Shown piece by piece: positions 50,260 to 64,000 of a stretch of DNA of 64,000 nucleotides (the first letter of the stretch is position 1; each line of letters begins with the position of its first letter). The translations under genes and the position numbers were made by a program. The notes under the pieces are model-generated. The model did no database searches. It was not told the origin of the DNA and saw only the letters and a list, made by a program, of their open reading frames with translations. This DNA comes from Lachnospiraceae bacterium AM93-12TA (GTDB taxonomy: Bacteria > Bacillota > Clostridia > Lachnospirales > Lachnospiraceae). The stretch is taken from assembly GCA_027698105.1 (NCBI GenBank), contig JAQERH010000005.1:1-64000 (forward strand), read 5' to 3'.

Positions 50260-50550
50260 CTATGCGCCGCATCCGCATCCGCCGGAAGGAGCACTTCCAT
50301 TTATCGGCATAACACAGTTTGCAATACCGGCATCGTAGCCGTTCTGGTAGCCAACCTGGCAGCCGGCGGCATAGCCGTCATTGTAGCCGTTTCGGTAGCT
50401 GGAGTTTCCTGAGGAGCAGCAGGAACTGGAATTATTATTGTGGCTGCCGCAGCAGGAACCGGAAGGATTGGTATCTTCGCAGCAGGTTGTATAGCAGTGG
50501 CAGCATCTTCTCTGGTATCCACAGTTATTATATCTTCTAAAACAACACAT
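50260..50550 (-). CDS. Cys-rich small protein, probable spore coat/crust component
   Basis: A 96-aa protein with about 14 Cys, many as CC pairs (MCCFRRYNNCGYQRRCCHCY; SGSCCGSHNNNSSSCCSSG), a Tyr/Gly repeat (YRNGYNDGYAAGCQVGYQNG) and a GGCGCGA end. It has no signal peptide. The ATG follows AAGGAGATATTTTAT. A SigK-like promoter lies upstream and cotJC is 0.5 kb away, so a disulfide-cross-linked spore surface protein is the best inference. Metal binding is an alternative. No named family recognised. Confidence 0.75.
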   Translation of the reverse strand: MCCFRRYNNCGYQRRCCHCYTTCCEDTNPSGSCCGSHNNNSSSCCSSGNSSYRNGYNDGYAAGCQVGYQNGYDAGIANCVMPINGSAPSGGCGCGA

Positions 50551-51033: not shown

Positions 51034-51576
51034 TTATTTGACACGATCAAATTCAGGGTTAAAGGCATAAAAGTTCTTGCTGTCCAGGCGTTCCTGTAAA
51101 TTTCTCAAAGCTTCACCGAATCTTTGGTAGTGAACGATTTCACGTTCCCGTAAGTACCGAATCGGATCGCAGACATCAGGATCCTTTACCACGCGGAGAA
51201 TATTATCATAAGTAGAGCGGGCCTTCTGTTCTGCAGCAAGATCCTCCGTCAGATCGGTGATTGCATCGCCTTTTACCTGGAATTCGCAGGCATTAAAGGG
51301 GATTCCTCCGGATGCCTGTGGCCAGATTCCTGTAGTATGATCAATGTAGTAAGGACCGAAGCCGGATTCTTCGACCTGCTCAGGAGTCAGGTTTTTTGTG
51401 AGCTGGCAGACAATGGCAGCTACAATCTCCATATGAGCCAGTTCCTCTGTGCCGATATCAGTCAGAAGACCTTTTTCCTCTGCATAGGGCATGGTGTAAC
51501 GCTGGGAGAGATAACGCATGGAAGCACCGATCTCCCCGTCAGGCCCGCCGTATGTCAGTAACAGATTAGTGCTCAA
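51034..51576 (-). pseudogene. cotJC: cotJC (spore-coat manganese-catalase family), 5' end removed by island 2
   Basis: 180 codons of CotJC: YGGPDGEIGASMRYLSQRYT, then TDIGTEELAHMEIV (ferritin-like metal ligands), and EKARSTYD-type and EIVHYQRFGEAL motifs (seen here as EQKARSTYDNIL). Full-length CotJC proteins carry about 20-25 more residues before the YGGPDGE motif. Here the homologous frame runs without a stop into the end of the serine integrase, and the only start is a TTG with a poor site. The missing 5' part and the rest of the cotJ operon should lie beyond the far end of the element. Confidence 0.8.
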
Positions 51577-51596
51577 AACCTTGATTTTATAAGAAA
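51577..51596. mobile_element. Junction of island 2 (prophage-like element) with cotJC
   Basis: Host-like cotJC sequence ends within about 20 bp of the integrase stop codon, so one attachment half-site of a large serine recombinase must lie here. The element extends right past the window end; only the left boundary is visible. Confidence 0.65.
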
Positions 51597-53033
51597 TTAC
51601 GATATGTAATAGTGAAATTCGAACCGATCCGCTTTTCGGTCAAATACAATGAATTTTAAAATGCTGCGAAGGGCCGTCCCCTTTGTTTCAAAGTCCACAT
51701 CAGGGGAGCAGAGGAGATCATGGACTGTTTTGACACGTTCCAGAAGCTCTTCATGAGATAGGGCAGGAGAGCAGTCAGCTGGTTCCAGGGAAGCAAGCTC
51801 TGCCTCCAGCTCCGCTCGTTCTTTTAAGAGCTGTTTCTTTCGTGTCCTATACTCTTCTAATGAGTCGATGCCGTTTTCGTAGGCGGACCGGATACGTTCT
51901 TCTTTCAGCGCCAGGCGTTCCAGCTTCACTTCGATGGCTGCCTTTTGGCTGGAATCCTGTTCAGAGGCGGGCCGGGGAATTCGGTCATACTCAAAGTTTC
52001 CCGTTTCCAGAATCTTTTCCAGGGAACGAATGACAATTCTCTCTGCCTTGGCTACAGTCACAGAACAGGATTCCTTATGGAGACCCTTGGCATATTTCCA
52101 GCAGGCAAAGACAGCGTCCGGACGGCTTTTGCCTCCGCCGTTGTAGGACATGGTCGCTCCACAGACAGAACATTTTAAAATCCCGGAGAGCCAGTGCCTG
52201 CATGTGGATATGCTGCGGCGCTTCACAGGGCGGAATTCCTGTTTCAGTCGTTCCTGGCAGATATCATATAAACCGGTGACAGATTGGCGTGTCTCATGGC
52301 TTCCCTGGAAGGAGATGCCATTCCAACTTACTGTACCGTTGTAAAAAGGATTTGTAAGAATCCTGGTAATAGTTCGCTGCTCGAAAGGGTTTCCCCGCTT
52401 TGCTTTTTTACCTTGAGCGTTCAGGCGCCGGGCGATGGCAGTCCTGTCCAGATTTTCCAGAGCATACATCCGGAAAATATCCTCTACGATTTTATATTCG
52501 TCTTCTACGATAACGAAAGGCTTTCCATTTCCTACGGCCGCATAGCCAAGACAGGGAACAATCTGATATCCCTTTAGTTCCGCCTTTTTCGTCATACCCC
52601 GCTTTACTTCAACGCCCAGATTGTAGGAATAGAACTCATCCTGCCATTCAATAATCATTTCAATCAGCCGGCCGTACATGCCTTCCATGATAGGCTCTGA
52701 CACGCTGACCACATCGATTCCCAGTTTTTTCCTGAGCATCCCCTTGTAAAAGGTGCTTTCGTCCTGGTTCCTGGCAAACCGGGAAAATTTCCAGACGAGA
52801 ATGCAGTCAAAGGGTTTAGGTTTTACCTTCGCTGTGGAAATCATCCGCTGGAACTCTGGCCGGTTCTCGGCTTTTTTGCCGCTTCGGCCTTCCTGCTCCA
52901 TGAAAATGTAATCAGGCGACAGAACAATGTCGTTTGCCGCGGCATATTTTTTGATTTCATCCAGCTGGGAGTCAGGACTCAGATCCAGCTGGTCATCCGT
53001 GCTGACACGGATATAAGCAGCTCCTATCAGCAT
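51597..53033 (-). CDS. Large serine recombinase (phage-type integrase)
   Basis: A 478-aa protein. The resolvase domain has nucleophile Ser11 in GAAYIRVSTDDQ and KFSRFARNQDES; a recombinase domain follows (about residues 150-260; GYQIVPCLGYAAV, NPFEQRTITRILTNPFYNGT). It then has a zinc ribbon (LKCSVCGATMSYNGGG, then SC) and a coiled-coil segment (about 370-440), as in phiC31/TP901-type integrases. The start is ATG 53033 behind GGAGATGATATA; an upstream frame to 53081 lacks a site. Its 3' end touches the cotJC fragment, so it is the enzyme that inserted island 2. Confidence 0.93.
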   Translation of the reverse strand: MLIGAAYIRVSTDDQLDLSPDSQLDEIKKYAAANDIVLSPDYIFMEQEGRSGKKAENRPEFQRMISTAKVKPKPFDCILVWKFSRFARNQDESTFYKGMLRKKLGIDVVSVSEPIMEGMYGRLIEMIIEWQDEFYSYNLGVEVKRGMTKKAELKGYQIVPCLGYAAVGNGKPFVIVEDEYKIVEDIFRMYALENLDRTAIARRLNAQGKKAKRGNPFEQRTITRILTNPFYNGTVSWNGISFQGSHETRQSVTGLYDICQERLKQEFRPVKRRSISTCRHWLSGILKCSVCGATMSYNGGGKSRPDAVFACWKYAKGLHKESCSVTVAKAERIVIRSLEKILETGNFEYDRIPRPASEQDSSQKAAIEVKLERLALKEERIRSAYENGIDSLEEYRTRKKQLLKERAELEAELASLEPADCSPALSHEELLERVKTVHDLLCSPDVDFETKGTALRSILKFIVFDRKADRFEFHYYIS

Positions 53034-53093
53034 TATATCATCTCCTTCATGTAGTGACAATCTATGTGATTTTGGGTGCAAAAATAACGCCCC

Positions 53094-53214
53094 TTGTCAG
53101 GACGCTCTGGAAATGATATAATTCAGGTGTTCAAGCTGATTGTATCTTCCGGAGCGTCCGGTAAGAGAAAATCTATGGAAAAGCCGTTCCTGGTTGCAGC
53201 CAGGGGCGGTTTTT
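53094..53214 (+). ncRNA. Candidate small RNA: isolated promoter plus terminator
   Basis: TTGTCA (53094-53099), 17-bp spacer, TATAAT (53117-53122), then about 85 nt later a 10-bp terminator stem (CCGTTCCTGG / CCAGGGGCGG, 53184-53209) and TTTTT. There is no gene on this strand, and both neighbours are leftward. A 13-bp inverted repeat (GGACGCTCTGGAA at 53100-53112; TTCCGGAGCGTCC at 53147-53159, one mismatch) surrounds the -10. The transcript would run convergently with rhuM. Confidence 0.5.
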
Positions 53215-53215
53215 A

Positions 53216-54214
53216 TTATGAGTGTTTTGGAAGTTCTGGCAAATCATCAATTACTTCTGCATTGTGTTCAAGGGTTTTTCGATGTTTATCAAATAGTTCA
53301 TACTGTTTTTTTGCAAAATCATCAGCTTCTTCTCTGGTAACAGTACCGTTTGTACTGAGTACCGTTCTTCCCATGAATTGCAGGAAAACATTAAGACGTT
53401 GCTCCCAATCACTCATATGCATAGGTATGTGCTGACGGGCTTGGTCTTCTGCATAATCCAAATACATTGTTACAATGCGGTTTAAATTGTCGATTTCCTC
53501 TTTGTTTAAGTAATTTTTAGCAATAGTAACATCCGATTTTCTTACTTTGCTTCCTTTAAAAGAAGTTAATCCCATATTGTCTTTTGAGGAATTTGCGCGT
53601 TCTACTATTAGTTCTGGGGCAGTATGGCCATGAACAGAATAATGAAGCTTATTTTGAACAGTTTTAAAAAATTTGTCAGCCTGTTCACTTTTGGGATCAT
53701 AATCTATAGAAGTAGCGAATATATCTCGCACCTTTAAATAGACTCGTTTTTCACTGGCACGGATATCTCGAATACGTTCTAATAATTCATCAAAATAATC
53801 GGCTCCAAACTGTTTGGGGTTTTTTAAACGTTCATCATTGAGCGCAAATCCTTTTTTCATGTATTCAGACAGAACGGAAGATGCCCAATTTCTAAAATGC
53901 ATACCGATATTATTTCTAACACGATAACCGATAGCCAGAATTAGAGAAAGATTGTATACTTTAATGGTCCTTTGAACACTGCGAATACCTTCATTTTGAA
54001 CTTGTAAATAATTCTTACAAGTTGAATTTTCATCTAATTCACCATCACCATAAATATTCTTTATATGTGTTGTAATATTTTGAGGCGTTGTTTGGTATAG
54101 TTCAGCAATACTCTTCTGGGACATCCAGATAGTTTCATCGTTAAAGTATGCATCAATTTTTGTATCTCCTTTTTCTGTTTGATATATCAATATATTTCCA
54201 GTATTTTCTAGCAT
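53216..54214 (-). CDS. RhuM-family protein
   Basis: A 332-aa protein matching the RhuM family. Seen: NDETIWMSQKSIAELYQTTP (N-terminal HTH-like), RNNIGMHFRNWASSVLSEYM and SDWEQRLNVFLQF near residue 265. RhuM was named from a Salmonella pathogenicity island; homologues are common accessory genes on phages and restriction-modification islands, and function is unresolved. The ATG follows AAAGGAGAG. First gene after the candidate sRNA. Confidence 0.88.
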   Translation of the reverse strand: MLENTGNILIYQTEKGDTKIDAYFNDETIWMSQKSIAELYQTTPQNITTHIKNIYGDGELDENSTCKNYLQVQNEGIRSVQRTIKVYNLSLILAIGYRVRNNIGMHFRNWASSVLSEYMKKGFALNDERLKNPKQFGADYFDELLERIRDIRASEKRVYLKVRDIFATSIDYDPKSEQADKFFKTVQNKLHYSVHGHTAPELIVERANSSKDNMGLTSFKGSKVRKSDVTIAKNYLNKEEIDNLNRIVTMYLDYAEDQARQHIPMHMSDWEQRLNVFLQFMGRTVLSTNGTVTREEADDFAKKQYELFDKHRKTLEHNAEVIDDLPELPKHS

Positions 54215-54258
54215 AAACTCTCCTTTGCTTTATCCCGGCAATTTCATGTTCCTATTTA

Positions 54259-54446
54259 TATGATTAGGTGGGCATTGTTCCGAAGCAGGTGCTTGAAGTA
54301 TTCCATCTCCAGAGCTGAGTAACCTGATATATTTTCCCAAGTATAATCAGGAAGATAGCAGGTAACATCTCGAAAACTGCCGTTATCATCTGAGGACTAA
54401 AAATATACTTTAACACGCCCGTCAGGTTTCATTTCAGAATGGGTAA
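54259..54446 (-). pseudogene. Degenerate second copy of the DUF2442 gene
   Basis: About 188 bp closely similar to 55447-55634 in the intact gene. It lacks the N-terminal about 20-25 codons and has an in-frame TAG where the intact copy has the Glu of VYFETP. A duplication remnant between rhuM and the Uma2 gene. Confidence 0.8.
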
Positions 54447-54467
54447 GTGGCTCCCCTGCAGCAGGGG

Positions 54468-55013
54468 CTATTCTAAAAGCCCCGCTATGCAGATGGAGAG
54501 CTGCTTCTGATAAATTTCCGCTTTCAGCTCCGCCGAAAAAGGAACAATAACAGGTGCGCTGTCTTCCTCAAAATAGTATTTTGTCGTACACTCCTTAACC
54601 GGATCTACAATCCAGTATTCTCGGACACCAGCGTCCATGTAAAGTCCGGCTTTCCACACATAGTCCATTTTCCGACTGGAAGGAGATACAATTTCCACAA
54701 TCAGATCCGGAGCTCCGGAGCAGCCACGGTCTGTCAGCTTGGACTTATCGCAGATAACGGAAACATCCGGCTCCACCCAGTTCTTATCCTCTGCATCCAG
54801 ATTGACGGCGAAGGGAGAGGGGTAGACCTCGCAGTTTCCTTTTTGCGAAACAATGTAGTTATCAATTTGTTTGGAAAGCTGAAAACACAATTTTTGATGA
54901 ATCCGGCTGGGCGGAGCCATCGCATAAAACTGGCCGTTAATTAGTTCGGCCCGTTCACCTTCTGGAAGATTCCAGTAATCATCGGAAGTATAGAGTTCTT
55001 TTTTGAGTAACAT
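54468..55013 (-). CDS. Uma2-family (PD-(D/E)XK-like) putative endonuclease
   Basis: A 181-aa protein with the DUF820/Uma2 core: YWNLPEGERAELINGQFYAM, WVEPDVSVICDKSKL (catalytic Asp region), and PDLIVEIVSPSSRKMD followed by REYWIVDP. The fold is that of restriction-like nucleases, and the biological role is unknown. The ATG follows AAGGAGGTTCCT. In this island it sits among accessory genes next to DUF4160/DUF2442. Confidence 0.85.
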   Translation of the reverse strand: MLLKKELYTSDDYWNLPEGERAELINGQFYAMAPPSRIHQKLCFQLSKQIDNYIVSQKGNCEVYPSPFAVNLDAEDKNWVEPDVSVICDKSKLTDRGCSGAPDLIVEIVSPSSRKMDYVWKAGLYMDAGVREYWIVDPVKECTTKYYFEEDSAPVIVPFSAELKAEIYQKQLSICIAGLLE

Positions 55014-55137
55014 AGGAACCTCCTTTTAAACATACAAATTAAATTCAAGTCTACAAGGGCGTGGCAGTTGTCCAGGTGAGAATACTATATTATTAAGGTG
55101 TGTTCCCTGGGACAGGAAAGCTGAAGGAAACATTGCA

Positions 55138-55422
55138 TTAGCAGTAATAAGTAATTTCACCGAAATGCTCGACCCACTGTTCAATAATCTCATCACTGTT
55201 GGCCTCAATCATTCTCATGATACTTCGTAAAACTTTGAATGAAAGATTGGCGGAATTTTTTGCGAGGAGAGTTTTTCCTGTACTGGTAATCCAGACTTTT
55301 GTTCCAGCAGCAGTTGCACGTCCTTCTGCAATATGGACATGGATTGGTTCGAGAGGTTTTCCCTCGTTGGACCAGAAGTAAACGGTATAGGAGCCGATCT
55401 TAAAGATTTGAGGCATTTTCAA
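55138..55422 (-). CDS. DUF4160 protein
   Basis: A 94-aa protein with the family pattern near the N-terminus (GSYTVYFWSNEGKPLEPIHV then HIAEGRA) and a helical C-terminus (IEANSDEIIEQW). It overlaps the DUF2442 gene by 23 bp and is therefore translationally coupled. DUF4160/DUF2442 pairs recur in mobile DNA and have the size and layout of a toxin-antitoxin pair; activity is not established. The ATG follows AGGAGGGAGGG. Confidence 0.85.
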   Translation of the reverse strand: MKMPQIFKIGSYTVYFWSNEGKPLEPIHVHIAEGRATAAGTKVWITSTGKTLLAKNSANLSFKVLRSIMRMIEANSDEIIEQWVEHFGEITYYC

Positions 55423-55672
55423 ACCCTCCCTCCTGCGAAAACTCTATGATCAGGTGGGCATTGTTCCGAAGCAGGTGCTTGAAGTATTCCATCTCCAGAG
55501 CTGAGTAACCTGATATATTTTCCCAGGTATAATCAGGAAGATAGCAGGTAGCGTTCCGAAAACCACCGTTATCATCCGGAGTTTCAAAATACACTTTAAC
55601 ACGTCCGTCCGGCTTCATTTCAGAATGAGTAATTTCAGTGTCATCGTTTAAAGTCATATATGGATACATCAT
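55400..55672 (-). CDS. DUF2442-like protein
   Basis: A 90-aa protein (start at the double ATG 55672/55669 behind AAGGAGG; the longer TTG frame overlaps that site). Seen: KPDGRVKVYFETPDD and TCYLPDYTWENISGYS, then a helix ending LLRNNAHLIIEFSQ. Upstream partner of the DUF4160 gene. A decayed copy lies at 54259-54446. Confidence 0.75.
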   Translation of the reverse strand: MMYPYMTLNDDTEITHSEMKPDGRVKVYFETPDDNGGFRNATCYLPDYTWENISGYSALEMEYFKHLLRNNAHLIIEFSQEGGFENASNL

Positions 55673-55713
55673 AAATAATTTACCTCCTTGCAAGGCGTCA
55701 TAATAAAAGTTTT

Positions 55714-56187
55714 TTACTTTACAGAAAAATATTCGTACACCTGAAGTGCCGGTTCAAACTGGATAAAATAGTTGTCCACCATCACACCTGTTCCATAAAT
55801 CTGTCTATAGCATTCCAGAGCATCCGTTAAAGTATCCTCTGATATCCCTAAATATTCAGCAATTTCATAACGGTTGGTGCAGTGATTTTGGAAAGCATTT
55901 AAAATTCTAATTAGCCCTATTCTCTTATTGTAAGACCAGAGGCGGGCTGTCCGTTCCTGCTTACGGGCATTAATTGTATCCTGTTTCAAAATATTTCCAA
56001 CGCTGGTATAGTGATGGCCTAACTCTTCGGCGATTGTATCAGCGGTTTTGGATGAAACCATCCCTTCTTTTATCGCAATGGAGCCATCTACATAAAGACC
56101 ACATAAGCGTTCACTATTAAAATTTATATAATCAATGGCAATTCCGTTATCACAAGCTTCTTGTTCAAGCTGTTCTTTGTCAGTCAC
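55714..56187 (-). CDS. ImmA/IrrE-type metallopeptidase
   Basis: A 157-aa protein with the peptidase motif AEELGHHYTSVG (near residue 52; an EELGHH variant common in Firmicute ImmA) and a C-terminal helical region. ImmA-type enzymes cleave the adjacent phage repressor on induction. It follows the CI-like gene by 15 bp in the leftward transcript, matching the ImmR-ImmA layout of ICEBs1. Confidence 0.85.
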   Translation of the reverse strand: MTDKEQLEQEACDNGIAIDYINFNSERLCGLYVDGSIAIKEGMVSSKTADTIAEELGHHYTSVGNILKQDTINARKQERTARLWSYNKRIGLIRILNAFQNHCTNRYEIAEYLGISEDTLTDALECYRQIYGTGVMVDNYFIQFEPALQVYEYFSVK

Positions 56188-56202
56188 TATTATCAGCTCC
56201 TA

Positions 56203-56505
56203 TTATTTATTACGTCTGTTCTTAACGAATTCGGCATAGGCACGGATATCGTCTAATTCATCCTCTGTAAATTCGTCACCATCAAAATGGGCAGCAATAG
56301 TAGAAGAATATGGAATATCATCAAAGTCGTTTAACGTAAGTCCCAACACTCTTGCAACGGCTTTTAAAGTTTCCAATTTAGGATCCTTTGTCGCCCCACT
56401 TAATATTTTGTTTAGTGTTCCAACGGGTACACCAGATAATTTTGATAATTCTTCAGTAGTGAGTCCGATTCTTTTTTTATATTCATTAATTTTTTCAAGT
56501 CCCAT
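56203..56505 (-). CDS. XRE-family repressor (CI/ImmR-like)
   Basis: A 100-aa protein with an N-terminal HTH (LTTEELSKLSGVPVGTLNKILSG, about residues 15-37) and an acidic C-terminus (FTEDELDDIRAYAEF). The ATG follows GGAGGATTGCT. Divergent from a Cro-like gene across a region with repeated TTTACCGTTA operators, so it is the likely lysogeny repressor. Confidence 0.9.
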   Translation of the reverse strand: MGLEKINEYKKRIGLTTEELSKLSGVPVGTLNKILSGATKDPKLETLKAVARVLGLTLNDFDDIPYSSTIAAHFDGDEFTEDELDDIRAYAEFVKNRRNK

Positions 56506-56527
56506 AGCAATCCTCCATCATGGAAAT

Positions 56528-56650
56528 ATTTTACCGCTAATTATCAATTAAGTCAATGTTTTTTACCGTTATTTATAATTATTTTACCACAAACGGTTGA
56601 CATTTACCGTTAAAGGATGTATGATATAGCCACAACAACCGTTGACGGTT
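56528..56650. promoter_or_regulatory. Lysogeny switch: repeated operator sites
   Basis: The divergent intergenic region has four TTTACC-type repeats: near 56529-56541 (TTTTACCGCTAATTA), 56561-56573 (TTTTACCGTTATT), 56582-56590 (TTTTACCAC, weaker) and 56602-56612 (ATTTACCGTTA). Two dyads are AACGGT-n8-ACCGTT (about 56592-56611) and AACCGT-TG-ACGGTT (56637-56650). Binding would control both the CI-like and Cro-like promoters. Confidence 0.75.
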
Positions 56651-56666
56651 AGAAAGGAGTTTACCA

Positions 56667-56888
56667 ATGCATAGAATTTTGAGAGCAGAAATGGTGAAAT
56701 GCAATAGAACCATTTTGCAGTTGGCTTCAGAAATGGGAATATCTGAAAAAACTTTAAGAAATAAAATTAATGGAGATACAGATTTTACTCTTCCAGAAGC
56801 CCAAACCATAAGAAGGCTTCTTGGCACAAAACTTACATTAGATGAGTTATTTGAAGTGGAAGAAAAAGAGCATAGGCATGACCGTTGA
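56667..56888 (+). CDS. Cro-like small HTH protein
   Basis: A 73-aa protein, mostly a helix-turn-helix (TILQLASEMGISEKTLRNKI) with a short acidic/basic tail. The ATG follows GAAAGGAG. First rightward gene of the element's lytic-direction transcript and the counterpart of the divergent repressor. Confidence 0.85.
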   Translation: MHRILRAEMVKCNRTILQLASEMGISEKTLRNKINGDTDFTLPEAQTIRRLLGTKLTLDELFEVEEKEHRHDR

Positions 56889-56913
56889 GGAGCTGCTGAG
56901 GGGAGGTGAGAAG
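56884..56913 (+). repeat. Leader repeat A (GAGGAGCTGCTGA + SD)
   Basis: First of three copies of a GAGGAGCT(G/A)CTGA..GGAGGTGAGA unit. Related copies are at 57542-57574 and 58414-58446. Each encodes a VEELL/IEELL-type peptide and ends in a strong ribosome site. Confidence 0.7.
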
Positions 56914-56915
56914 TA

Positions 56916-57071
56916 GTGCATCATTTGATGATTAAAGAAACTTCAAATGGATTTGAGTTAAGCCTTGATGAGAAGAAAATCCATAATGTAGAAGAATATG
57001 AAATCACCAAAAGCTCTACGAAACAGGGCACGGCAGAGCTTCTGGTGAAGATATTGGTTAAATATCCTTAG
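56916..57071 (+). CDS. Small phage protein, unknown
   Basis: A 51-aa protein starting at GTG behind GGGGAGGTG (leader repeat A). Short beta-strand-rich sequence (HHLMIKETSNGFELSLDEKK). Its stop overlaps the convergent DUF2513 gene by 4 bp. Too small to classify. Confidence 0.55.
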   Translation: MHHLMIKETSNGFELSLDEKKIHNVEEYEITKSSTKQGTAELLVKILVKYP

Positions 57072-57433
57072 CCAAGGAAATGCTTTAGTGCAATATTTTT
57101 TGCAAGTTCCATAAGAATTGGAAGCGATGCATCGGCCCCTTTGGAAATTACTTTTTTCCATAGAGAATCGCTTCGGATGTTGGCTAAGAATTCATGCCCA
57201 TACGGAGTGAGGTCGGAAACAATAATAGTTTCTCCACCATCGTAATAATGGACACCTTGAATAAGTCCAGATTGGCTCGCCAGTCTTATGTGGTAGATGA
57301 TTTCTTCGTGGCTGAGTTCAGCCAAATATTCAGAATCAAAGCTATTTTCTTCGTATTCCCAGGGAGTATGGAAGTTACATTTTTCCTCAACAGTTAGAAG
57401 TATAGCACGGAGGCAATCAGGATTTAATTTCAT
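57068..57433 (-). CDS. DUF2513-family phage protein
   Basis: A 121-aa protein with the family pattern MKLNPDCLRAILLTVEEKC at the start, EIIYHIRLASQSGLIQG, and LTPYGHEFLANIRSDSLWKK. DUF2513 proteins are frequent in phage lysogeny regions and function is unknown. The start is ATG 57433 behind GAAAGGAAC; the longer TTG frame is rejected. Leftward within an otherwise rightward stretch. Confidence 0.85.
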   Translation of the reverse strand: MKLNPDCLRAILLTVEEKCNFHTPWEYEENSFDSEYLAELSHEEIIYHIRLASQSGLIQGVHYYDGGETIIVSDLTPYGHEFLANIRSDSLWKKVISKGADASLPILMELAKNIALKHFLG

Positions 57434-57541
57434 GATAATGTTCCTTTCTAATTTCGTACTCGGCCTGGCGGGGCCTATGAACAGTATAAGATGAGCAGAT
57501 AGGAAAAGCAAGGTATGGGAGAAGAAATTTCCAGTGAGAGT

Positions 57542-57574
57542 ATCGAGGAGCTACTGAAACAGGAGGTGAGAAGC
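57542..57574 (+). repeat. Leader repeat B
   Basis: Second copy; it directly provides the ribosome site of the gene at 57575. Confidence 0.7.
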
Positions 57575-57769
57575 ATGTTTTTAGAAAACCATGACTATGC
57601 AATGGAAAATGGAGAAATTTTCCCCAGAGAGAAAGTCAGCGAGCTTGTCCAAGAGATTTTAAACAAGTTCGCTGAAGAAGGGCTGAGCGTTGACGAGGCG
57701 AAGCTTATATTGCAACGTACCATAGATGTGGTTGGTCAATTTTCCATAGTAAAAATTAAAGATTTTTGA
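57575..57769 (+). CDS. Small helical phage protein, unknown
   Basis: A 64-aa protein from ATG 57575 behind AGGAGGTG (leader repeat B). The frame opens earlier at 57515, where the upstream codons form the recurring IEELL leader. Amphipathic helical sequence (VSELVQEILNKFAEEGLSVD). Converges with the next gene, 14-bp overlap. Confidence 0.6.
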   Translation: MFLENHDYAMENGEIFPREKVSELVQEILNKFAEEGLSVDEAKLILQRTIDVVGQFSIVKIKDF

Positions 57770-58349
57770 GAATCATTTCTTGCAAAGAATAGGAGATACT
57801 TAAAAGTTCTTTATCCTTGGTAGCATATTTTAAAACTGGGAGAGAAGCCGCCGCTGTTAAATCAAGTATAAATTCTTCTCTATATGTTTTAACAGCACTT
57901 TTGTATTTAATGGAAAATCTCACAGGTCGATTTATTTTTGTGAAATCTAAGTAGCAGGTTTTCGATTGACCTGGAGCAATCAGGCATTTTGATAAATCTT
58001 CTATGTAGTTTTTAGAATTGTGAGTTCCATAACAATTAGAAAAATCAAAATCAGTTTTAAATTCAAGCATCTGCGCTGATGATTGTCCATAATTTTTTAC
58101 AACAAGATAGAACATAGGCATTCCAGGATTAAATGTGCTGGTATAGACAGATACAATAGGGCGGCTTGATTCTTCTATCATTTTGTTTGATTGTCGCAAC
58201 GTGAAAATAGAAATGAGAATGGCTATAAAACCCACAGTGGTTGAAAGTATTATACCACTGATCTGAACCCAGTCAGATGGAGTTAAAGAAGAAAAAAATG
58301 AAGTGGTTTGTAAGTTGGCTGATGAAGTGGTGGCGATAGTACATAGCAT
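57756..58349 (-). CDS. Membrane-anchored protein with extracellular/soluble beta domain, unknown
   Basis: A 197-aa protein with one membrane helix (about residues 27-50; ISGIILSTTVGFIAILISIF) and a C-terminal beta-rich domain (about 60-185; PGMPMFYLVVKNYGQSSAQM), like small proteins often encoded as leftward accessory (moron) genes in prophages. The ATG follows AAAGGAGA. A role in superinfection exclusion or defence is possible but unsupported by motifs. Confidence 0.7.
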   Translation of the reverse strand: MLCTIATTSSANLQTTSFFSSLTPSDWVQISGIILSTTVGFIAILISIFTLRQSNKMIEESSRPIVSVYTSTFNPGMPMFYLVVKNYGQSSAQMLEFKTDFDFSNCYGTHNSKNYIEDLSKCLIAPGQSKTCYLDFTKINRPVRFSIKYKSAVKTYREEFILDLTAAASLPVLKYATKDKELLSISYSLQEMILKNL

Positions 58350-58413
58350 TTGTATAGTCTCCTTTGAATTATTGGGTAGATTGTAACATAAAAATATGGA
58401 ATTTTCCAGAAGC

Positions 58414-58446
58414 CATCGAGGAGCTGCTGAAGTAGGGAGGTGAGAG
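58414..58446 (+). repeat. Leader repeat C
   Basis: Third copy. It reads IEELLK-stop and GGGAGGTGAGAG but no ORF begins after it; the next gene has its own site at 58501-58507. Probably a leftover after gene loss. Confidence 0.65.
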
Positions 58447-58514
58447 AAAACTACAATAGTTCAACTTGTACAACCCGTCTTGCATAAAATTTAGCAGAGA
58501 AGGAGGAGAACAGT

Positions 58515-58670
58515 ATGAAAGAAGCAACCATTACAAATTGCATTGATATTCATGGACAAGAGTACCGAATCGAGGAACTGTCAGAGGAAAAGCGAAAGCA
58601 GGTAGCTATGCTGCTGTCAGACCGATTTATGGAGATGGCAGGATACAGAAGAAAGGTGTGTGACGAATGA
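58515..58670 (+). CDS. Small phage protein, unknown
   Basis: A 51-aa protein from ATG 58515 behind GGAGGAG; charged and helical with IEELSEEKRKQVAMLLSDRF. Overlaps the next gene by 4 bp (ATGA). Typical of short host-takeover-region genes; no family named. Confidence 0.6.
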   Translation: MKEATITNCIDIHGQEYRIEELSEEKRKQVAMLLSDRFMEMAGYRRKVCDE

Positions 58671-58840
58671 GAAAGAGAGATACAGTCCCGGAGCACCCGC
58701 TCCGGGTAGCACAGAGGGAAAATGTGGCGCTGAAAGACGAAGTGAAGTTTCTTCATGAGGCCCTGTTTTTCACAGAGATTTTGGCCGCCGGTTTCTTCGG
58801 GGCATTCCTGGCCATTTTGCATGTGGTTGGGTGGCTGTAA
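58667..58840 (+). CDS. Small phage membrane protein
   Basis: A 57-aa protein. Charged N-terminus (VAQRENVALKDEVKFLHEAL) then one hydrophobic helix (about residues 31-55). ATGA overlap with the previous gene suggests coupled translation. Confidence 0.6.
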   Translation: MRKRDTVPEHPLRVAQRENVALKDEVKFLHEALFFTEILAAGFFGAFLAILHVVGWL

Positions 58841-58855
58841 CAGGAGGTGACAAGG

Positions 58856-58993
58856 ATGTGGCTGATTTTTTTAATTAGCATGCTGGTGATTGCAGTGGCA
58901 GCGCTTGGAGTTGTCTGGACTGCCAGCAAGGTATTTTTATCAATCAGGCGAAACGAAAGAAAATTCAATCAGGAGGAAAAGGAAAATGAATAA
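58856..58993 (+). CDS. Very small phage membrane protein
   Basis: A 45-aa protein. N-terminal hydrophobic helix (WLIFLISMLVIAVAALGVV) and a basic/acidic tail. The ATG follows AGGAGGTG. Overlaps the start of the prohibitin-like gene by 8 bp, and its 3' end contains that gene's ribosome site. Confidence 0.6.
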   Translation: MWLIFLISMLVIAVAALGVVWTASKVFLSIRRNERKFNQEEKENE

Positions 58994-59876
58994 GGGACTG
59001 GTCGTAGGTTTAGTAGCAGCTGTAGCAGTAGCAGGAGGCGTATATACCGTTAAATCAATCGAGCATGTAGGGCAGGGAGAGGTCGGAGTTGTCTGGACTG
59101 CGAAGAACGGAGTAGAGGGAACACTGGATTCCGGATGGCATTTTGTAGGCCCTCTTACACGGGTAAAAAACTACCCAATTTCACAGTAGCAGCTGGTTCT
59201 GAGTAACAACCCAGAAGATTATAACGAAAAGAAACACGCAGACTGGCATGTGGATGCTCCGGCAGATGGCGGAATGGTAAAAATGAATCTGACAGTCAAC
59301 TATAACTTCATTCCAGAGCGAGTGACAGACCTCTATGCAAGGTTTAATGGCATGGATGGGGAGGCTATTGTAGACAGCAGAGTGCAGAATTCCATTGTAG
59401 CCTACATAAAAGAAGTGACACCACAGTTTTCCGTAATGGATATTTACAGCGATAAGCGGGCGGAGGTAAGCAAAGCGGTAACAGAATACTTAGACGGAAA
59501 ACTGAATGATGAGTATGGAATCCATGTTTCCTCTGCGCTGATCATCGATGTTCAGCTGGATGAAACGCTTCAGGCGAAGATCCAGGCAAAGGAACAGGCA
59601 AAACAGGACGCAGAAAAGGCAGAACTGGACAAGCAGACAGCAGTTGCTCAGGGAGAAGCCAATAAGGCTCAGGCTCAGGCAGAGGCAGAGGTAAAAAGAA
59701 TTAATGCAGAAGCGGAGGCAGAACAGACCAAGATTAAAGCCCAGGCAGAGGCAGAAGCAAACCGATTATTAAATCAGTCTATTACACCAGAGTTGATCCA
59801 GATGAAAGAGGCAGAGGCCAGATTGAAACATGGATGGGTAACCGTTCAGGGGGCCGAAGCTGTAGTAACAAAATAA
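58986..59876 (+). pseudogene. Prohibitin/stomatin (SPFH)-family phage gene interrupted by one in-frame TAG
   Basis: Reads as a single 296-codon SPFH protein apart from TAG at 59187-59189. It has an N-terminal helix (GLVVGLVAAVAVAGGVYTV), GQGEVGVVWTAKNGVEG, then after the stop VDAPADGGMVKMNLTVNYNF, IIDVQLDETLQAKIQAKEQA and a long Ala/Glu/Lys coiled coil. The frame on both sides is intact, so the stop is recent or is read through. Local context is CAG-TAG-CAG-CTG. Translation could restart only at weak internal sites. Phage SPFH proteins are common, role unknown. Confidence 0.8.
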
Positions 59877-60064
59877 TGGGGAAGCGGATAGAAGACGCAA
59901 CCTGTCGGGACTGCCGTGGCTGGTTCTGGTGTATGGAAGCCAGCCGCCTGTACCCGTGTAAGGAATTCAAAGAAAAAAGGCCCGCCGGTTGCCGCCGGGC
60001 AGGGCCAAAGAAAAATAATCACAAGAAAAGTGTAAACCGAAATAGGAGGAAAAGCAAGTGGTAA
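59876..60064 (+). CDS. Small Cys-motif phage protein
   Basis: A 62-aa basic protein with CRDCRGWFWC and a further Cys (YPCKEF), which could coordinate zinc; Lys/Arg-rich tail. It begins at TAATG overlapping the previous stop. The coding sequence contains a GC-rich hairpin (about 59979-60006). Confidence 0.55.
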   Translation: MGKRIEDATCRDCRGWFWCMEASRLYPCKEFKEKRPAGCRRAGPKKNNHKKSVNRNRRKSKW

Positions 60065-60375
60065 AAGGTTTCATTTTGGCAGAAGGTAAAAAGAGGACAA
60101 TGAAAGAATGCGATATATTATTTTGTGTCGGTGTAAAGTCGACAGAAAAAAATGATATAAACCATCAAGTTGAAGTGCAGAGACTTTTGATAGGAGGCGG
60201 TATAGGATGCGGAGATTTTATTGCGTCATTTGGAGAGGCTGCCGCAGAAGTCATAGTGGAATTAGCAGAAGAAAAACCTGAAAGGGCACTAGCCATGTCT
60301 ACTTTGTTCTTAGAATCTTTCCGAAGAAGTTTCAAAACTGCAATAAGGCAGCAGAAGGATAAAAAAGAGGAGTAG
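60058..60375 (+). CDS. Unknown phage protein
   Basis: A 105-aa protein from GTG 60058 behind AGGAGG, overlapping the previous gene. Mixed alpha/beta, with a Gly-rich turn (LLIGGGIGCGDFI) and a helical C-terminus. It ends in TAG, so TAG is a working stop in this element. Confidence 0.6.
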   Translation: MVKGFILAEGKKRTMKECDILFCVGVKSTEKNDINHQVEVQRLLIGGGIGCGDFIASFGEAAAEVIVELAEEKPERALAMSTLFLESFRRSFKTAIRQQKDKKEE

Positions 60376-60394
60376 TCCTATAGGGAGAAAAGAG

Positions 60395-60940
60395 ATGCAG
60401 TGTATTGGAAGACTCAGAACCTGCTTCCGGGAACCTGGAGGAAAACAGGTTATAGTGATTGAAACCGATGATCCGGTGCTCGCACAGGCGGACGCAGTCC
60501 GCGGGAAGCGCCTCGCGGTCACATTAAAACCTTACCGTCCTCCCAGAAGCCTAAACGCAAACGCATATGCCTGGGGCCTGATATCCAGGTTAGCAGCTAA
60601 AATGTCTACCAAGGAGCAGGTATGGACAAAGAATGAGATGTACCAGGAAATGCTGTCCCGTTACGGCGAGGCAGAGTTGGATGAGAGCGGGAACCCGAAG
60701 CACTTCCTGGCCAAGGTAGAGATAGATCCTGCAAAGTTCGGCGCCGCCTGCCGGCCGATAGGAGTCATGTGGCAGGATGGAGAGCGCTATGTGGCCTATG
60801 AATCAATCAAAGGAAGCAGTCAGTATGACAGTGCAGAGATGTCCCGGTTTCTGGACGGCATTATTTCGGAATGCCGGGAGCAGGGAATCGATACGATATC
60901 AGCGGAGGAACTGGAGAGACTTAAGAGGAGCTGGCGATGA
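60395..60940 (+). CDS. NinB-like phage recombination protein
   Basis: A 181-aa protein with the NinB/YqaN-type core (RSLNANAYAWGLISRLAAKM, then QYDSAEMSRFLDGIISECRE). NinB in lambda binds ssDNA and acts in recombination. Overlaps the HNH-like gene (ATGA). No close sequence check was possible. Confidence 0.7.
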   Translation: MQCIGRLRTCFREPGGKQVIVIETDDPVLAQADAVRGKRLAVTLKPYRPPRSLNANAYAWGLISRLAAKMSTKEQVWTKNEMYQEMLSRYGEAELDESGNPKHFLAKVEIDPAKFGAACRPIGVMWQDGERYVAYESIKGSSQYDSAEMSRFLDGIISECREQGIDTISAEELERLKRSWR

Positions 60941-61221
60941 TAAAAAAGAGCGTATTAGTAGACGATATGGAACACTGCGTGGTAACCGGCAGTTCCAGGG
61001 TCGAGATCCACCATGTATTCAACGGGCCCTGCCGGAAGCTGTCGGAGAAATATCATTTTGTGATTCCTCTCCGGCCGGACTGGCACAATATGCAGCCGTA
61101 CAGCATCCACATGGATCAGAAATTTGATGAGTCCTGGAAGCAGTACGCACAGGCCTACTATGAAGAGCATATTGGAACCAGGGAAGACTTCCGAAGGGAG
61201 TTTGGAAAATCGTATTTATAA
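60937..61221 (+). CDS. HNH-like phage nuclease-type protein
   Basis: A 94-aa protein with VEIHHVFNGPCRKLSEKYHF and PLRPDWHN, the His-rich beta-beta-alpha arrangement of small phage HNH proteins usually found next to NinB-type genes. The Cys residues of the usual zinc knuckle are reduced. The start overlaps the NinB-like gene by 4 bp. Confidence 0.7.
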   Translation: MIKKSVLVDDMEHCVVTGSSRVEIHHVFNGPCRKLSEKYHFVIPLRPDWHNMQPYSIHMDQKFDESWKQYAQAYYEEHIGTREDFRREFGKSYL

Positions 61222-61303
61222 CCAGTGGTCAGATTTCGGTAATATATCACAAATATTCAGGATGTCATTGGTGATTCGCCGGATACCGGCAGAAAGGAAA
61301 ACG

Positions 61304-61753
61304 ATGGGAAGAAACGCAGAATTTGACACCCTGGCAGGGGGGGAGCTGAATGCTCAATTCCGCCAGGCTATCCGCCTGGTAGGCAGAAATATCATGGATC
61401 CCAATATGGATCCGGCAGCCTCCCGCGGAATTACAGTGACGTTAAGTTTTAAGCCCCGCGGGGATGGAACAGTGGGCCTGGGATTTAAAGTGGTTCCAAA
61501 GTTGGCAGGTCCGGCCAAGGTGGAGACGACGCTGCTGATTGGCCAGGACATCCGCACCGGCCAGGTGTCGATGCAGGAGCCGGGAGAAATCAGCCGGCCG
61601 GTAGTCGTGGAGGCAGAAGAAGTAAGAGATTACGATCCGGATACCGGAGAAATTTATGAACAGCCCCCGATTGATTTAAGGGCGAAGAGATGGAAAGGAG
61701 AAGCGGATGGAAGAATCAAGAGATGTGATGGAGTATCTGGAGAGTCTGGTTAA
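61304..61753 (+). CDS. Phage replication-terminator-like protein
   Basis: A 149-aa protein whose start (NAEFDTLAGGELNAQF) and core (NIMDPNMDPAASRGITVTLS then FKP) match proteins annotated as replication terminator proteins in Firmicute phages. Start chosen at ATG 61304 behind AAAGGA; an ATG at 61262 is possible. It overlaps the DUF2303 gene by 47 bp. Confidence 0.7.
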   Translation: MGRNAEFDTLAGGELNAQFRQAIRLVGRNIMDPNMDPAASRGITVTLSFKPRGDGTVGLGFKVVPKLAGPAKVETTLLIGQDIRTGQVSMQEPGEISRPVVVEAEEVRDYDPDTGEIYEQPPIDLRAKRWKGEADGRIKRCDGVSGESG

Positions 61754-62459
61754 AAGAGCGGAGACTCCCAGAGTGATGGAAATTTGCGGAAAGACCTATG
61801 TGGACAAGCGCATGGAGCGCTACGATGTTGCTCCCAAGGCCCGCGCAGTAGCAGCCCACACCCTGACAGCATTGTTAGACTACATTGAAAACTGTGCGGA
61901 GGAGTTTCCGCTTGGCAGCCGGATGATTGTACATATCGTAGACCCGATGACTGTCCGTCTGATGTCTCAGCTGGACAAGGAGCGGACCAGAGAGACGCTC
62001 TTTGAGTCGGAGGCAGAGGTATCCTGCTTCCGGTTTAACCAGTGGTATGACCAGGAAAGTTTTATGATTGCCCTGCAGTCCAATTTTGTCAAAAACGAGG
62101 ACCTGGAGCTGGTAATGAAGCTGTCCGGAAACATTGTCAGTAGGAATGAGCAGGCCTATGCAGATGACGGGATTTCCCAGTCGGCCACCATGAATGTAGG
62201 CGTGGCGAGTAAGGCGCCGGTTCTTGTACCAAACCCGGTAACACTGATTCCGTTTCGGACGTTCCAGGAGGTGGAGCAGCCAGAGAGTCAGTTCGTGTTC
62301 CGCATCGGCGAGCAGAACGGAGCTCCTGCCTTTAAATTGGTGGAAGCAGAGGGAGGCCTCTGGAGATTAAAAGCAATCAATCAGTTAAAAGAGTACATCT
62401 CAAACGTGCTGAAAGACCTCCCAGAAGAAATATCTGGTGATGTGGTAGTGATTGGATAA
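61707..62459 (+). CDS. DUF2303 phage protein
   Basis: A 250-aa soluble protein with the DUF2303 layout: KARAVAAHTLTALLDYIEN, the FNQWYDQESFMIALQSNFV region, and a beta-rich C-terminal half (SQFVFRIGEQNGAPAFKLVE). Common beside phage recombination/replication genes; function unknown. The ATG follows GGAAAGGAG. Confidence 0.85.
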   Translation: MEESRDVMEYLESLVKRAETPRVMEICGKTYVDKRMERYDVAPKARAVAAHTLTALLDYIENCAEEFPLGSRMIVHIVDPMTVRLMSQLDKERTRETLFESEAEVSCFRFNQWYDQESFMIALQSNFVKNEDLELVMKLSGNIVSRNEQAYADDGISQSATMNVGVASKAPVLVPNPVTLIPFRTFQEVEQPESQFVFRIGEQNGAPAFKLVEAEGGLWRLKAINQLKEYISNVLKDLPEEISGDVVVIG

Positions 62460-62487
62460 CAGGTCGGATGAGGCCGGTGTCAGTTTC

Positions 62488-62618
62488 CCTGTCAGAGCCG
62501 CCATCTACCCATTTTCTGTCGCCGTTTTCGGATTGCGGCAGCGAATGAATCCGTTCCTTCCGTCTGCGAGACGTAAGCCTTTCGTTCGGCGGGAACACTG
62601 ATTTGTAGATGGGACAGG
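62488..62618 (+). ncRNA. Candidate multibranched structured RNA (or replication-origin structure)
   Basis: A gene-free 214-bp gap folds well. P1 is CCTGTC (62488-62493) with GACAGG (62613-62618) and CCATCTAC (62501-62508) with GTAGATGG (62605-62612). P2 is CTGTCGC/GCGGCAG (62516-62522/62535-62541, one G-U). P3 is GTTCC/GGAAC (62553-62557/62592-62596), enclosing P4 CGTCT-GCG-AGACG (62561-62573) and P5 GCC/GGC (62577-62579/62588-62590). There is no ORF on the plus strand. I recognise no known RNA family. Confidence 0.5.
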
Positions 62619-62673
62619 CCTGATAGGGAGAAGCTGGCAGCAGCCGGCCGTCCAGGCAGGAAAAGAGGGACAT

Positions 62674-63561
62674 ATGGCAAAAGAGGGAATAGAGTATTTC
62701 CCCCTTAATTGCCGGCTCGATGAAAAATTTGAACTGATAGAAGCAGAATTTGGATTAAAAGGATTTGCAGTAATCGTCAAGCTGCTCCAGCGGATTTATG
62801 GAGAGCATGGTTATTACTGTGAATGGAATGAGGATATCGCCCTTCTGTTTGCGAGACAGGTTCTTTCCTGCAGCGGGGCGAACAATTTAATAGCCAGCAT
62901 TGTGGCGGCTTCTGTCAGGCGGGGTATCTTTGACCAGACACTTTTTGATAAATATGGGATTTTGACTTCCAGGGGAATCCAGAAGCGGTACCTGGAAATT
63001 ACCTATAAACGCAAAAAAGTGGAGATGGAAAAAGCGTACCTTTTATTAAGTGATGCCGAAATTAAGGGAAATGTCACCATTTTGGACAAAAATGATGACA
63101 GAAACGATAAAAATGACGACAGAAACGGACAAAGGAAAGTAAAGGAAAGTAAAGGAAATAATAGAAGAGTCGCCGGTCCCGTTCCGGCCCGGACGACGGA
63201 CCTGACTCCGTTTGATTTAAATTGTACAAAGAAGCTTATCCAGGCAGTTAAAAACCAGCTGCCGGGAGCTAAGGTTCCGGAGACAGAAACAGAGATAGAA
63301 AAGTGGGCCTGCCACGTGGAGAGGATGAGACGGCTGGATAAACGGACCGAAGCAGACATCACAGAAGCGTTGCAGTACGCCATTACGGATCCGTTTTGGA
63401 AAACCAACATCCGATCCACAGCAAAACTCAGAGAGAAATTTGAGACATTGATTTTACAGGCGCGGCAGAGACCGGGCTGGCAGGGAGGAGGTACAAAGGA
63501 TGCAAATGAATCTAAAGCCTGGGGATCACACCGTGATTACTACAGCATGTACCGAGCTTGA
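62674..63561 (+). CDS. DUF4373 (Lin1244/Lin1753-type) phage replication protein
   Basis: A 295-aa protein. The N-terminal DUF4373 domain (about residues 1-105; EYFPLNCRLDEKFELIEAEF, GLKGFAVIVKLLQRIYGEHG) resembles DnaD-type replication initiators. A short Asp/Asn/Lys repeat linker (NDDRNDKNDDRNGQ near 145-158) and a C-terminal helical domain follow. The next gene is DnaC-like, overlapping by 62 bp, which supports an initiator/loader pair. Confidence 0.85.
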   Translation: MAKEGIEYFPLNCRLDEKFELIEAEFGLKGFAVIVKLLQRIYGEHGYYCEWNEDIALLFARQVLSCSGANNLIASIVAASVRRGIFDQTLFDKYGILTSRGIQKRYLEITYKRKKVEMEKAYLLLSDAEIKGNVTILDKNDDRNDKNDDRNGQRKVKESKGNNRRVAGPVPARTTDLTPFDLNCTKKLIQAVKNQLPGAKVPETETEIEKWACHVERMRRLDKRTEADITEALQYAITDPFWKTNIRSTAKLREKFETLILQARQRPGWQGGGTKDANESKAWGSHRDYYSMYRA

Positions 63562-64000
63562 TGCGGTGGTAGTAAGCGTAAACCGATATGAGTATGGCAA
63601 GACCGCCGGCTGGGAAGTCGTCTATGATATCCCCGGTTACGGCATTACGCAGCCCTACTGGTATGACGACCACACCAGTTTCGCGGAAGTGAGACGTACC
63701 CGATCCGGAATTCCGGTGGAGTACGTGTATAAGCGGGGGAATGATTTTAAATGGGACTATTACGGTGACGAGACCGAGATGATAAAAAAGATTGCCCATT
63801 CGTTTGTGGCCAGATATGAGGAGTTTCGCCGGTCTGGACGTGGACTCTATATCTGCTCCCAAACGAAGGGAAGCGGAAAAACACTCCTGGCCTGCTGTCT
63901 GGCCAACGAGGTGATAGAGCGCTATAACGCGGTTGTAAAATTTATCCAGGTCCTGGATTATATCGACCTGGTAAAGAAAAAAGGCGAGGGAGTCTCTGAG
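63500..64000 (+). CDS. DnaC-like ATPase (helicase loader), truncated by the window end
   Basis: 167 codons visible, open at the right edge. An N-terminal part unlike classical DnaC (about residues 1-85) is followed by a P-loop, CSQTKGSGKTLLACCLANEV near 122, as in phage DnaC/IstB-type ATPases. The ATG follows GGGAGGAGG and lies inside the DUF4373 gene in another frame. Helicase-loader role inferred from context. Confidence 0.75.
   Translation, partial: MQMNLKPGDHTVITTACTELDAVVVSVNRYEYGKTAGWEVVYDIPGYGITQPYWYDDHTSFAEVRRTRSGIPVEYVYKRGNDFKWDYYGDETEMIKKIAHSFVARYEEFRRSGRGLYICSQTKGSGKTLLACCLANEVIERYNAVVKFIQVLDYIDLVKKKGEGVSE

Follow-up and report, generated by a model that had tools for sequence, protein, structure and literature searches.

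Mother-cell genes split by phage-like elements with a large serine recombinase (LSR) are known from sigK, which is divided by skin in B. subtilis and by skin-Cd in C. difficile; in skin-Cd, the LSR and a mother-cell directionality factor excise the element (PMC5025042). SPbeta of B. subtilis is an LSR phage in the spore-envelope gene spsM, which is restored in sporulation (PMC4191935). The gin element in gerE of B. cereus and the yin element in yabG of C. botulinum are further spore-gene elements with serine recombinases and short shared cores, and gin is described as having no phage genes (PMC5595907, PMC10747680). In C. difficile R20291 the prophage phi027 sits next to a CotJC homologue, which is described as adjacent or as lying downstream of attR, and not as a gene that is split and then restored when the prophage excises (PMC11222575, PMC12122855). 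Like skin and SPbeta, the element described here is phage-like, carries an LSR and lies inside a sporulation gene, in this case cotJC. It differs from skin in its target, which codes for a coat enzyme and not for a sigma factor, in the four break sites and sometimes two elements that this one gene shows across genomes, and in that its excision is one that we infer; from SPbeta in its gene, host and LSR and in being known from sequence alone; and from gin and yin, which are single cases, in recurring in many genomes at four sites. A literature search, with most subscription journals and all preprints outside its coverage, returned no report of cotJC or sleC split by intervening elements.

In the window (the whole 64,000-nt stretch analysed), the 3′ part of cotJC occupies 51034..51552 on the minus strand, from codon 29 to the stop, and belongs to the Mn-catalase/CotJC family (PF05067, E 2.8e-40); the open frame that contains it runs over 51034-51576. 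Compared with intact CotJC, homology sets in at Tyr29 (51552-51550). The LSR gene lies upstream on the same strand (51597..53033; 478 aa from the ATG at 53033, with the ORF open to 53081), and the 44 bp between its stop codon (51597-51599) and Tyr29 do not resemble CotJC and form an element-side attachment arm (51553..51596, minus strand) with the motif ATCTGTT at 51560-51566, 17 nt from the GG of Gly30. The sequence-only reading had placed the break exactly at the LSR stop codon; the cut of the CotJC frame beside the LSR stands, and its position moves by the length of the arm. We refer to the likely crossover zone, codons Tyr29-Gly-Gly-Pro32 (51541..51552, minus strand), as site A, and the site-A breaks of other genomes fall here.

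Among the best 120 of 7,995 scored proteins in a CotJC protein search, 15 were examined in full. One public 200-aa full-length CotJC (P0002) matches the window at 172 of 172 residues from Tyr29 on and has an ordinary N terminus that starts MWRYEKRLQYPV; P0003 is likewise full length. The gene in the window is thus cut at Tyr29 and not naturally short, and the condition that would have spoken against the sequence-only reading, relatives with an equally short CotJC and an ordinary start, does not hold, as P0002 is full length. Since the identical break point recurs in other genomes, a chance origin of the split is unlikely. That an LSR element splits this cotJC is near certain. Two of the proteins examined are 180-aa short forms (P0001, P0008), and four run into an arm resembling that of the window (P0004, P0005, P0007, P0011). 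P0025, P0027, P0028 and P0030 show a second divergence after RFGEA and look cut at sites A and D, unlike P0005 and P0007, which are cut at site A only; from these proteins, site occupancy seems to vary among close strains with the window type of CotJC. Left of the fragment, genes for SpoIID (PF08486, E 4.2e-14) and an M23 peptidase are consistent with a spore-forming host. Just downstream of cotJC, a Cys-rich ORF of 96 aa (50260-50550, minus strand), with no Pfam or NCBIfam matches, is perhaps another spore-surface protein.

The LSR has the Resolvase (PF00239), Recombinase (PF07508) and zinc ribbon (PF13408) domains, all above cut-offs, and among PHROGs it matches number 95, integrase, best (E 3.2e-95). 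Beyond it on the minus strand follow a RhuM-family gene (53216..54214; PF13310, E 5.9e-113), a Uma2-family gene (54468..55013; PF05685, E 5.2e-31), a phage metallo-protease-type gene (55714..56187; PHROG 87, E 4e-30) and a cI-like repressor (56203..56505; PF01381, E 4.5e-11; PHROG regulators). The plus strand carries a divergent CII/Cro-like regulator (56667..56888; PHROG 101, E 9.4e-06), a NinB-like recombination mediator (60395..60940; PHROG 72, E 5.8e-17) and a phage replication initiation protein (62674..63561; PF14297; PHROG 2562, E 1.3e-55). Phage lysogeny and replication genes had been read from the letters alone, and the Pfam and PHROG matches to the repressor, divergent regulator, NinB and replication initiation genes bear this out; the 3′ fragment, the LSR and the phage genes up to 64000 likewise support the interruption of cotJC by a phage element that carries an LSR. 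What can be seen of this element spans 51553..64000, with phage-type genes to the end of the window and its other end beyond 64000; the integrase, repressor and replication genes expected of a temperate phage all lie within the 64 kb. No candidate directionality factor or mother-cell promoter was identified in the window, and most of the element may lie beyond it. A near-identity search of a phage collection gave no matches. Upstream of the LSR gene is an inverted repeat (GGACGCTCTGGAA at 53100-53112 and TTCCGGAGCGTCC at 53147-53159), a possible operator or terminator. An SPFH/Band_7 domain seems to extend across two adjacent plus-strand ORFs (58890-59189 and 59250-59876), perhaps a frameshifted or split gene inside the element.

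The window stops inside the element, and the 5′ half of its own cotJC would lie beyond 64000, at the element's other end. The expected far end would consist of cotJC codons 1-28, a GG core and then an inverted arm like GTCAGTAACAGATTA; one arm of this element is seen, and the matching inverted arm is deduced from peptides of two public proteins. These came from a search with the cotJC 5′ half, in which 2 of 103 proteins (P0147 and P0150) go on with VSNRL. Translated, the inverted window arm gives YVSNRLVLKTLIL (which reads YVSNRLVLK) and P0150 has NVSNRLVLKSQYL, with eight residues identical; over residues 1-31, P0147 and P0002 are the same but for one position. P0147 and P0150 thus resemble the 5′ halves that elements of this family should have at their far end, as public proteins unlinked to the window genome. 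The motif ATCTGTT, 17 nt from the GG of Gly30, is also present in three of seven site-A elements compared (G331, G161 and G058); the word itself occurs in 0.8% of random 45-mers drawn from the compared site-A loci. IMG/VR was searched with a degenerate pattern for the far end and with the window arm in two forms; neither matched, and the far end was not recovered. The species of the window was not found in two overlapping sets of 397 and 395 genomes, in which the best cotJC DNA identity is 76%.

We surveyed 397 genomes of one family (that of G012, taken as Lachnospiraceae), 243 of which have cotJC. Matches were tabulated for 120 of the 243, plus three genomes from outside the draw (G005, G006 and G010); the other 123 are known only among the matches listed, so that the 79 split genomes reported here are a lower bound. 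At least 79 of the 243 show both sides of one break or more, at four sites (A in 32, B in 33, C in 13 and D in 12 genomes), with two sites broken in 11 genomes. A further 24 genomes have one side only and were not counted as split, and 17 have no piece at any site. An intact copy is absent from the tables in 63 of the 79, and 16, including G331, have a second, intact copy. Where both halves are on one contig they are in the correct order and on the same strand in 58 of 58 pairs (57 from the draw and one from G010), at distances of 1,549 bp (G360) to 117,556 bp (G265); ends are approximate for four 5′-half or paralogue rows (G286, G086, G126 and G161). In G058 the split gene is on a single 6.93-Mb contig. 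IMG/VR holds 18 contigs with cotJC, the pieces starting at site A in 5 and at site B in 13. As a control, a 201-aa protein of the window gave 51 matches in 48 of the same 79 genomes, one of them clearly partial (G173). The comparison is rough, as 31 genomes lacked any match and the matches were mostly distant. G185 has cotJC pieces 1-32, 27-65 and 167-199 on three contigs (C40, C44 and C67), a pattern that suggests cuts at three sites; the intervening piece was not found.

At all 33 junction pairs (7 at site A, 18 at B, 5 at C and 3 at D), the two halves meet at one and the same residue and have a run of 2-14 nt in common. Automatic joining gave a continuous CotJC in 32 of the 33 (in G150 the crossover was placed on a chance 3-nt match), and the register was kept in all. 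Site-A elements have similar inverted arms at both ends, and the arm sequence differs between elements. The protein is a Mn-catalase by domain (PF05067) and P0002 aligns to 1jku; on this alignment each of the four sites is no more than about six residues away from conserved positions that we take to be Mn ligands. DNA conservation at the four sites is moderately high, and 7,153 of 100,000 random quadruples are equally high, which offers weak support for sequence conservation as the reason for these sites.

From named organisms, the pattern seems to extend beyond Lachnospiraceae to some other Clostridia. On a circular sequence of Monoglobus pectinilyticus (NZ_OY725736.1), CotJA, CotJB and cotJC codons 1-33 are followed by an LSR that is 35% identical to that of the window, two small ORFs and the 3′ part of cotJC, annotated as ‘manganese catalase family protein’; the two cotJC halves share GGCGGTCCTAAT, and excision here would release a circle of 2.6 kb. 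Subdoligranulum variabile (OY725844.1) has a cotJC piece that ends at site C and Pusillibacter faecalis (NZ_AP023421.1) one that starts at site B, and within the stretches examined their partner halves were not found.

An LSR ORF is present in the DNA fetched for all 33 junction pairs and for 9 of the 18 IMG/VR loci. We placed 66 of 72 LSR rows, those of at least 400 residues, on a tree on which the site labels change four times, the minimum possible (shuffles average 34.8); the LSRs of site C fall into a single clade, as do those of site D, and those of site B into two, with long branches between some B and D rows. The window LSR lies inside an eight-row set that is all site A (100/99), and the nearest LSR next to a site-A cotJC (L062, G126) shares 56% identity with it. 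Site-A LSRs are interleaved with relatives located elsewhere than cotJC. At 5 of 22 loci examined the LSR is truncated (G320, G360, G134, G329 and G167) and the cotJC halves are still open.

Protein similarity alone, with the target ignored, yielded 16 relatives of the window LSR. A SleC-like gene adjoins the LSR in ten (L001-L005, L009, L010, L012, L013 and L015), an amidase_3-type gene in three and unresolved sequence in three. SleC is a germination enzyme, without which other Clostridia do not germinate. In the PDB, the SleC query joined from its halves matches 9h68, ‘Spore cortex-lytic enzyme pre-pro-form’, at E 7.6e-134. Halves of sleC broken at WMT|QWG are both present in 7 of 20 genomes (G001, G002, G003, G004, G005, G009 and G010); four of the seven pairs are on one contig, 2.6-5.4 kb apart, and all four join in frame (junctions L128-L131). 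Elsewhere among the 20, G012 has the 5′ half only, G011 has a different break and 11 are unbroken. Both cotJC and sleC are broken in G001, G005 and G010. The amidase_3-type frame starts at HGG and looks cut (L006 6361-7220; L007 9747-10265; L008 11503-12021); its identification as CwlD was rejected, at 70-75 bits against a cut-off of 221.55. Beside three relatives the target gene was unrecognised (L011 after 11139, L014 after 7470 and L016 after 11509). The use of LSR relatives not beside cotJC as counter-evidence was dropped, as these border sleC or an amidase gene.

Developmental excision is the reading that best fits these observations, and we consider the following account as a whole probable. 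An LSR-encoding temperate phage, or a phage remnant, would have integrated at the YGGP codons of cotJC site A, so that codons 1-28 stay with cotJA and cotJB and are parted from codons 29-200. It would belong to a large set of elements that interrupt cotJC in Lachnospiraceae and some other Clostridia. During sporulation, the LSR and a predicted directionality factor would excise the element precisely in the mother cell and so rebuild the gene for the coat Mn-catalase; the window's own 5′ half, the excision, its timing and the need for it are inferred, whereas the sequences show the cut, a full-length allele in near-identical relatives, the recurrence, halves elsewhere that complement each other in frame, and LSR clades that follow the sites. 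This account fits best because 63 of the 79 split genomes are without an intact copy and the halves look constrained: the median pN/pS is 0.159 in 29 split cotJC genes and 0.146 in 21 taken as intact. Many dS values in this comparison were saturated and only medians were used; in the row for G320 the reading runs past the site into phage sequence, and two rows counted as intact (L055 and L056) stop at residue 178, possibly because of a cut at site D. The split gene of G058 and the intact gene of G371 differ with a dS of 0.48 and a dN of 0.027. By the medians, split halves are about as constrained as intact genes. Excision is further supported because compact elements, with little besides the LSR, exist and keep it, and because sister LSRs border a second spore gene, sleC.

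Other observations weigh against excision: the truncated LSRs with open halves, the intact second copy in 16 of the 79 genomes, the absence of an identified directionality factor or mother-cell promoter, and the fact that constraint that predates insertion could explain intact halves. They bear on a rival account, in which ordinary prophages and their remnants use conserved, dispensable cotJC codons as attB, and the gene is restored only by chance phage excision with no link to sporulation. The repressor and replication genes of the window element suit such a prophage, as do the loci with truncated LSRs and open halves and the possible age of the constraint. Conserved genes are common LSR targets; those named in one survey include competence genes and the genes for a prolyl isomerase and a magnesium-chelatase-type protein (PMC10083194). 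A broken cotJC may also be tolerable, because mutants in related proteins show little phenotype: B. subtilis without this coat protein has no apparent spore defects (PMC12122855), and C. difficile cotCB and cotD mutants have reduced catalase activity and no significant coat defect (PMC11222575). Against this account stand the undecayed halves in genomes that have no intact copy, compact elements that retain the LSR but few other genes, the 11 genomes with two sites broken in one gene, and the position of sister LSRs in a germination enzyme gene. We regard it as unlikely, though a serious competitor to sporulation excision.

It is very improbable that the CotJC of the window is naturally short, or a decaying pseudogene, independently of the element. 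An in-frame TTG start does give a 180-aa ORF, and the clusters of P0001 and P0008 have that form; P0002 and P0003 are nevertheless full length, the former with its identical 172 residues, and the extra N-terminal residues of the short form are the element's arm, read through in a frame without a stop. Least credible of all is an assembly artefact, even though some named loci come from metagenome assemblies: breaks fall at the same residues in many genomes, among them the 6.93-Mb contig and the circular M. pectinilyticus sequence, and the control protein, for all its distant or missing matches, was clearly partial only once in 51.

A wider proposal, for which we see the balance as even, is that gut Clostridia run a modular developmental rearrangement, in which unrelated LSR clades would each have settled at one of four cotJC sites and a sister clade of the window LSR in sleC. 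A single coat gene would hold two independent elements in some genomes, and perhaps three in one of them; all elements would have to excise in the mother cell to rebuild the enzyme, and several recombinases would gate coat and germination genes.

The sporulation-gene intervening elements named in the literature covered are single cases from Bacillus and a few Clostridium-type species. Should the elements in cotJC and sleC be excised as spores develop, a large gut family would rearrange its DNA in a programmed way as a matter of routine, and one gene would have four separate recombinase targets. This would supply many pairs of LSR and attachment site and account for the many gut genomes in which spore genes look broken. 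M. pectinilyticus is a cultured commensal with a compact element in cotJC, and the idea is testable there.
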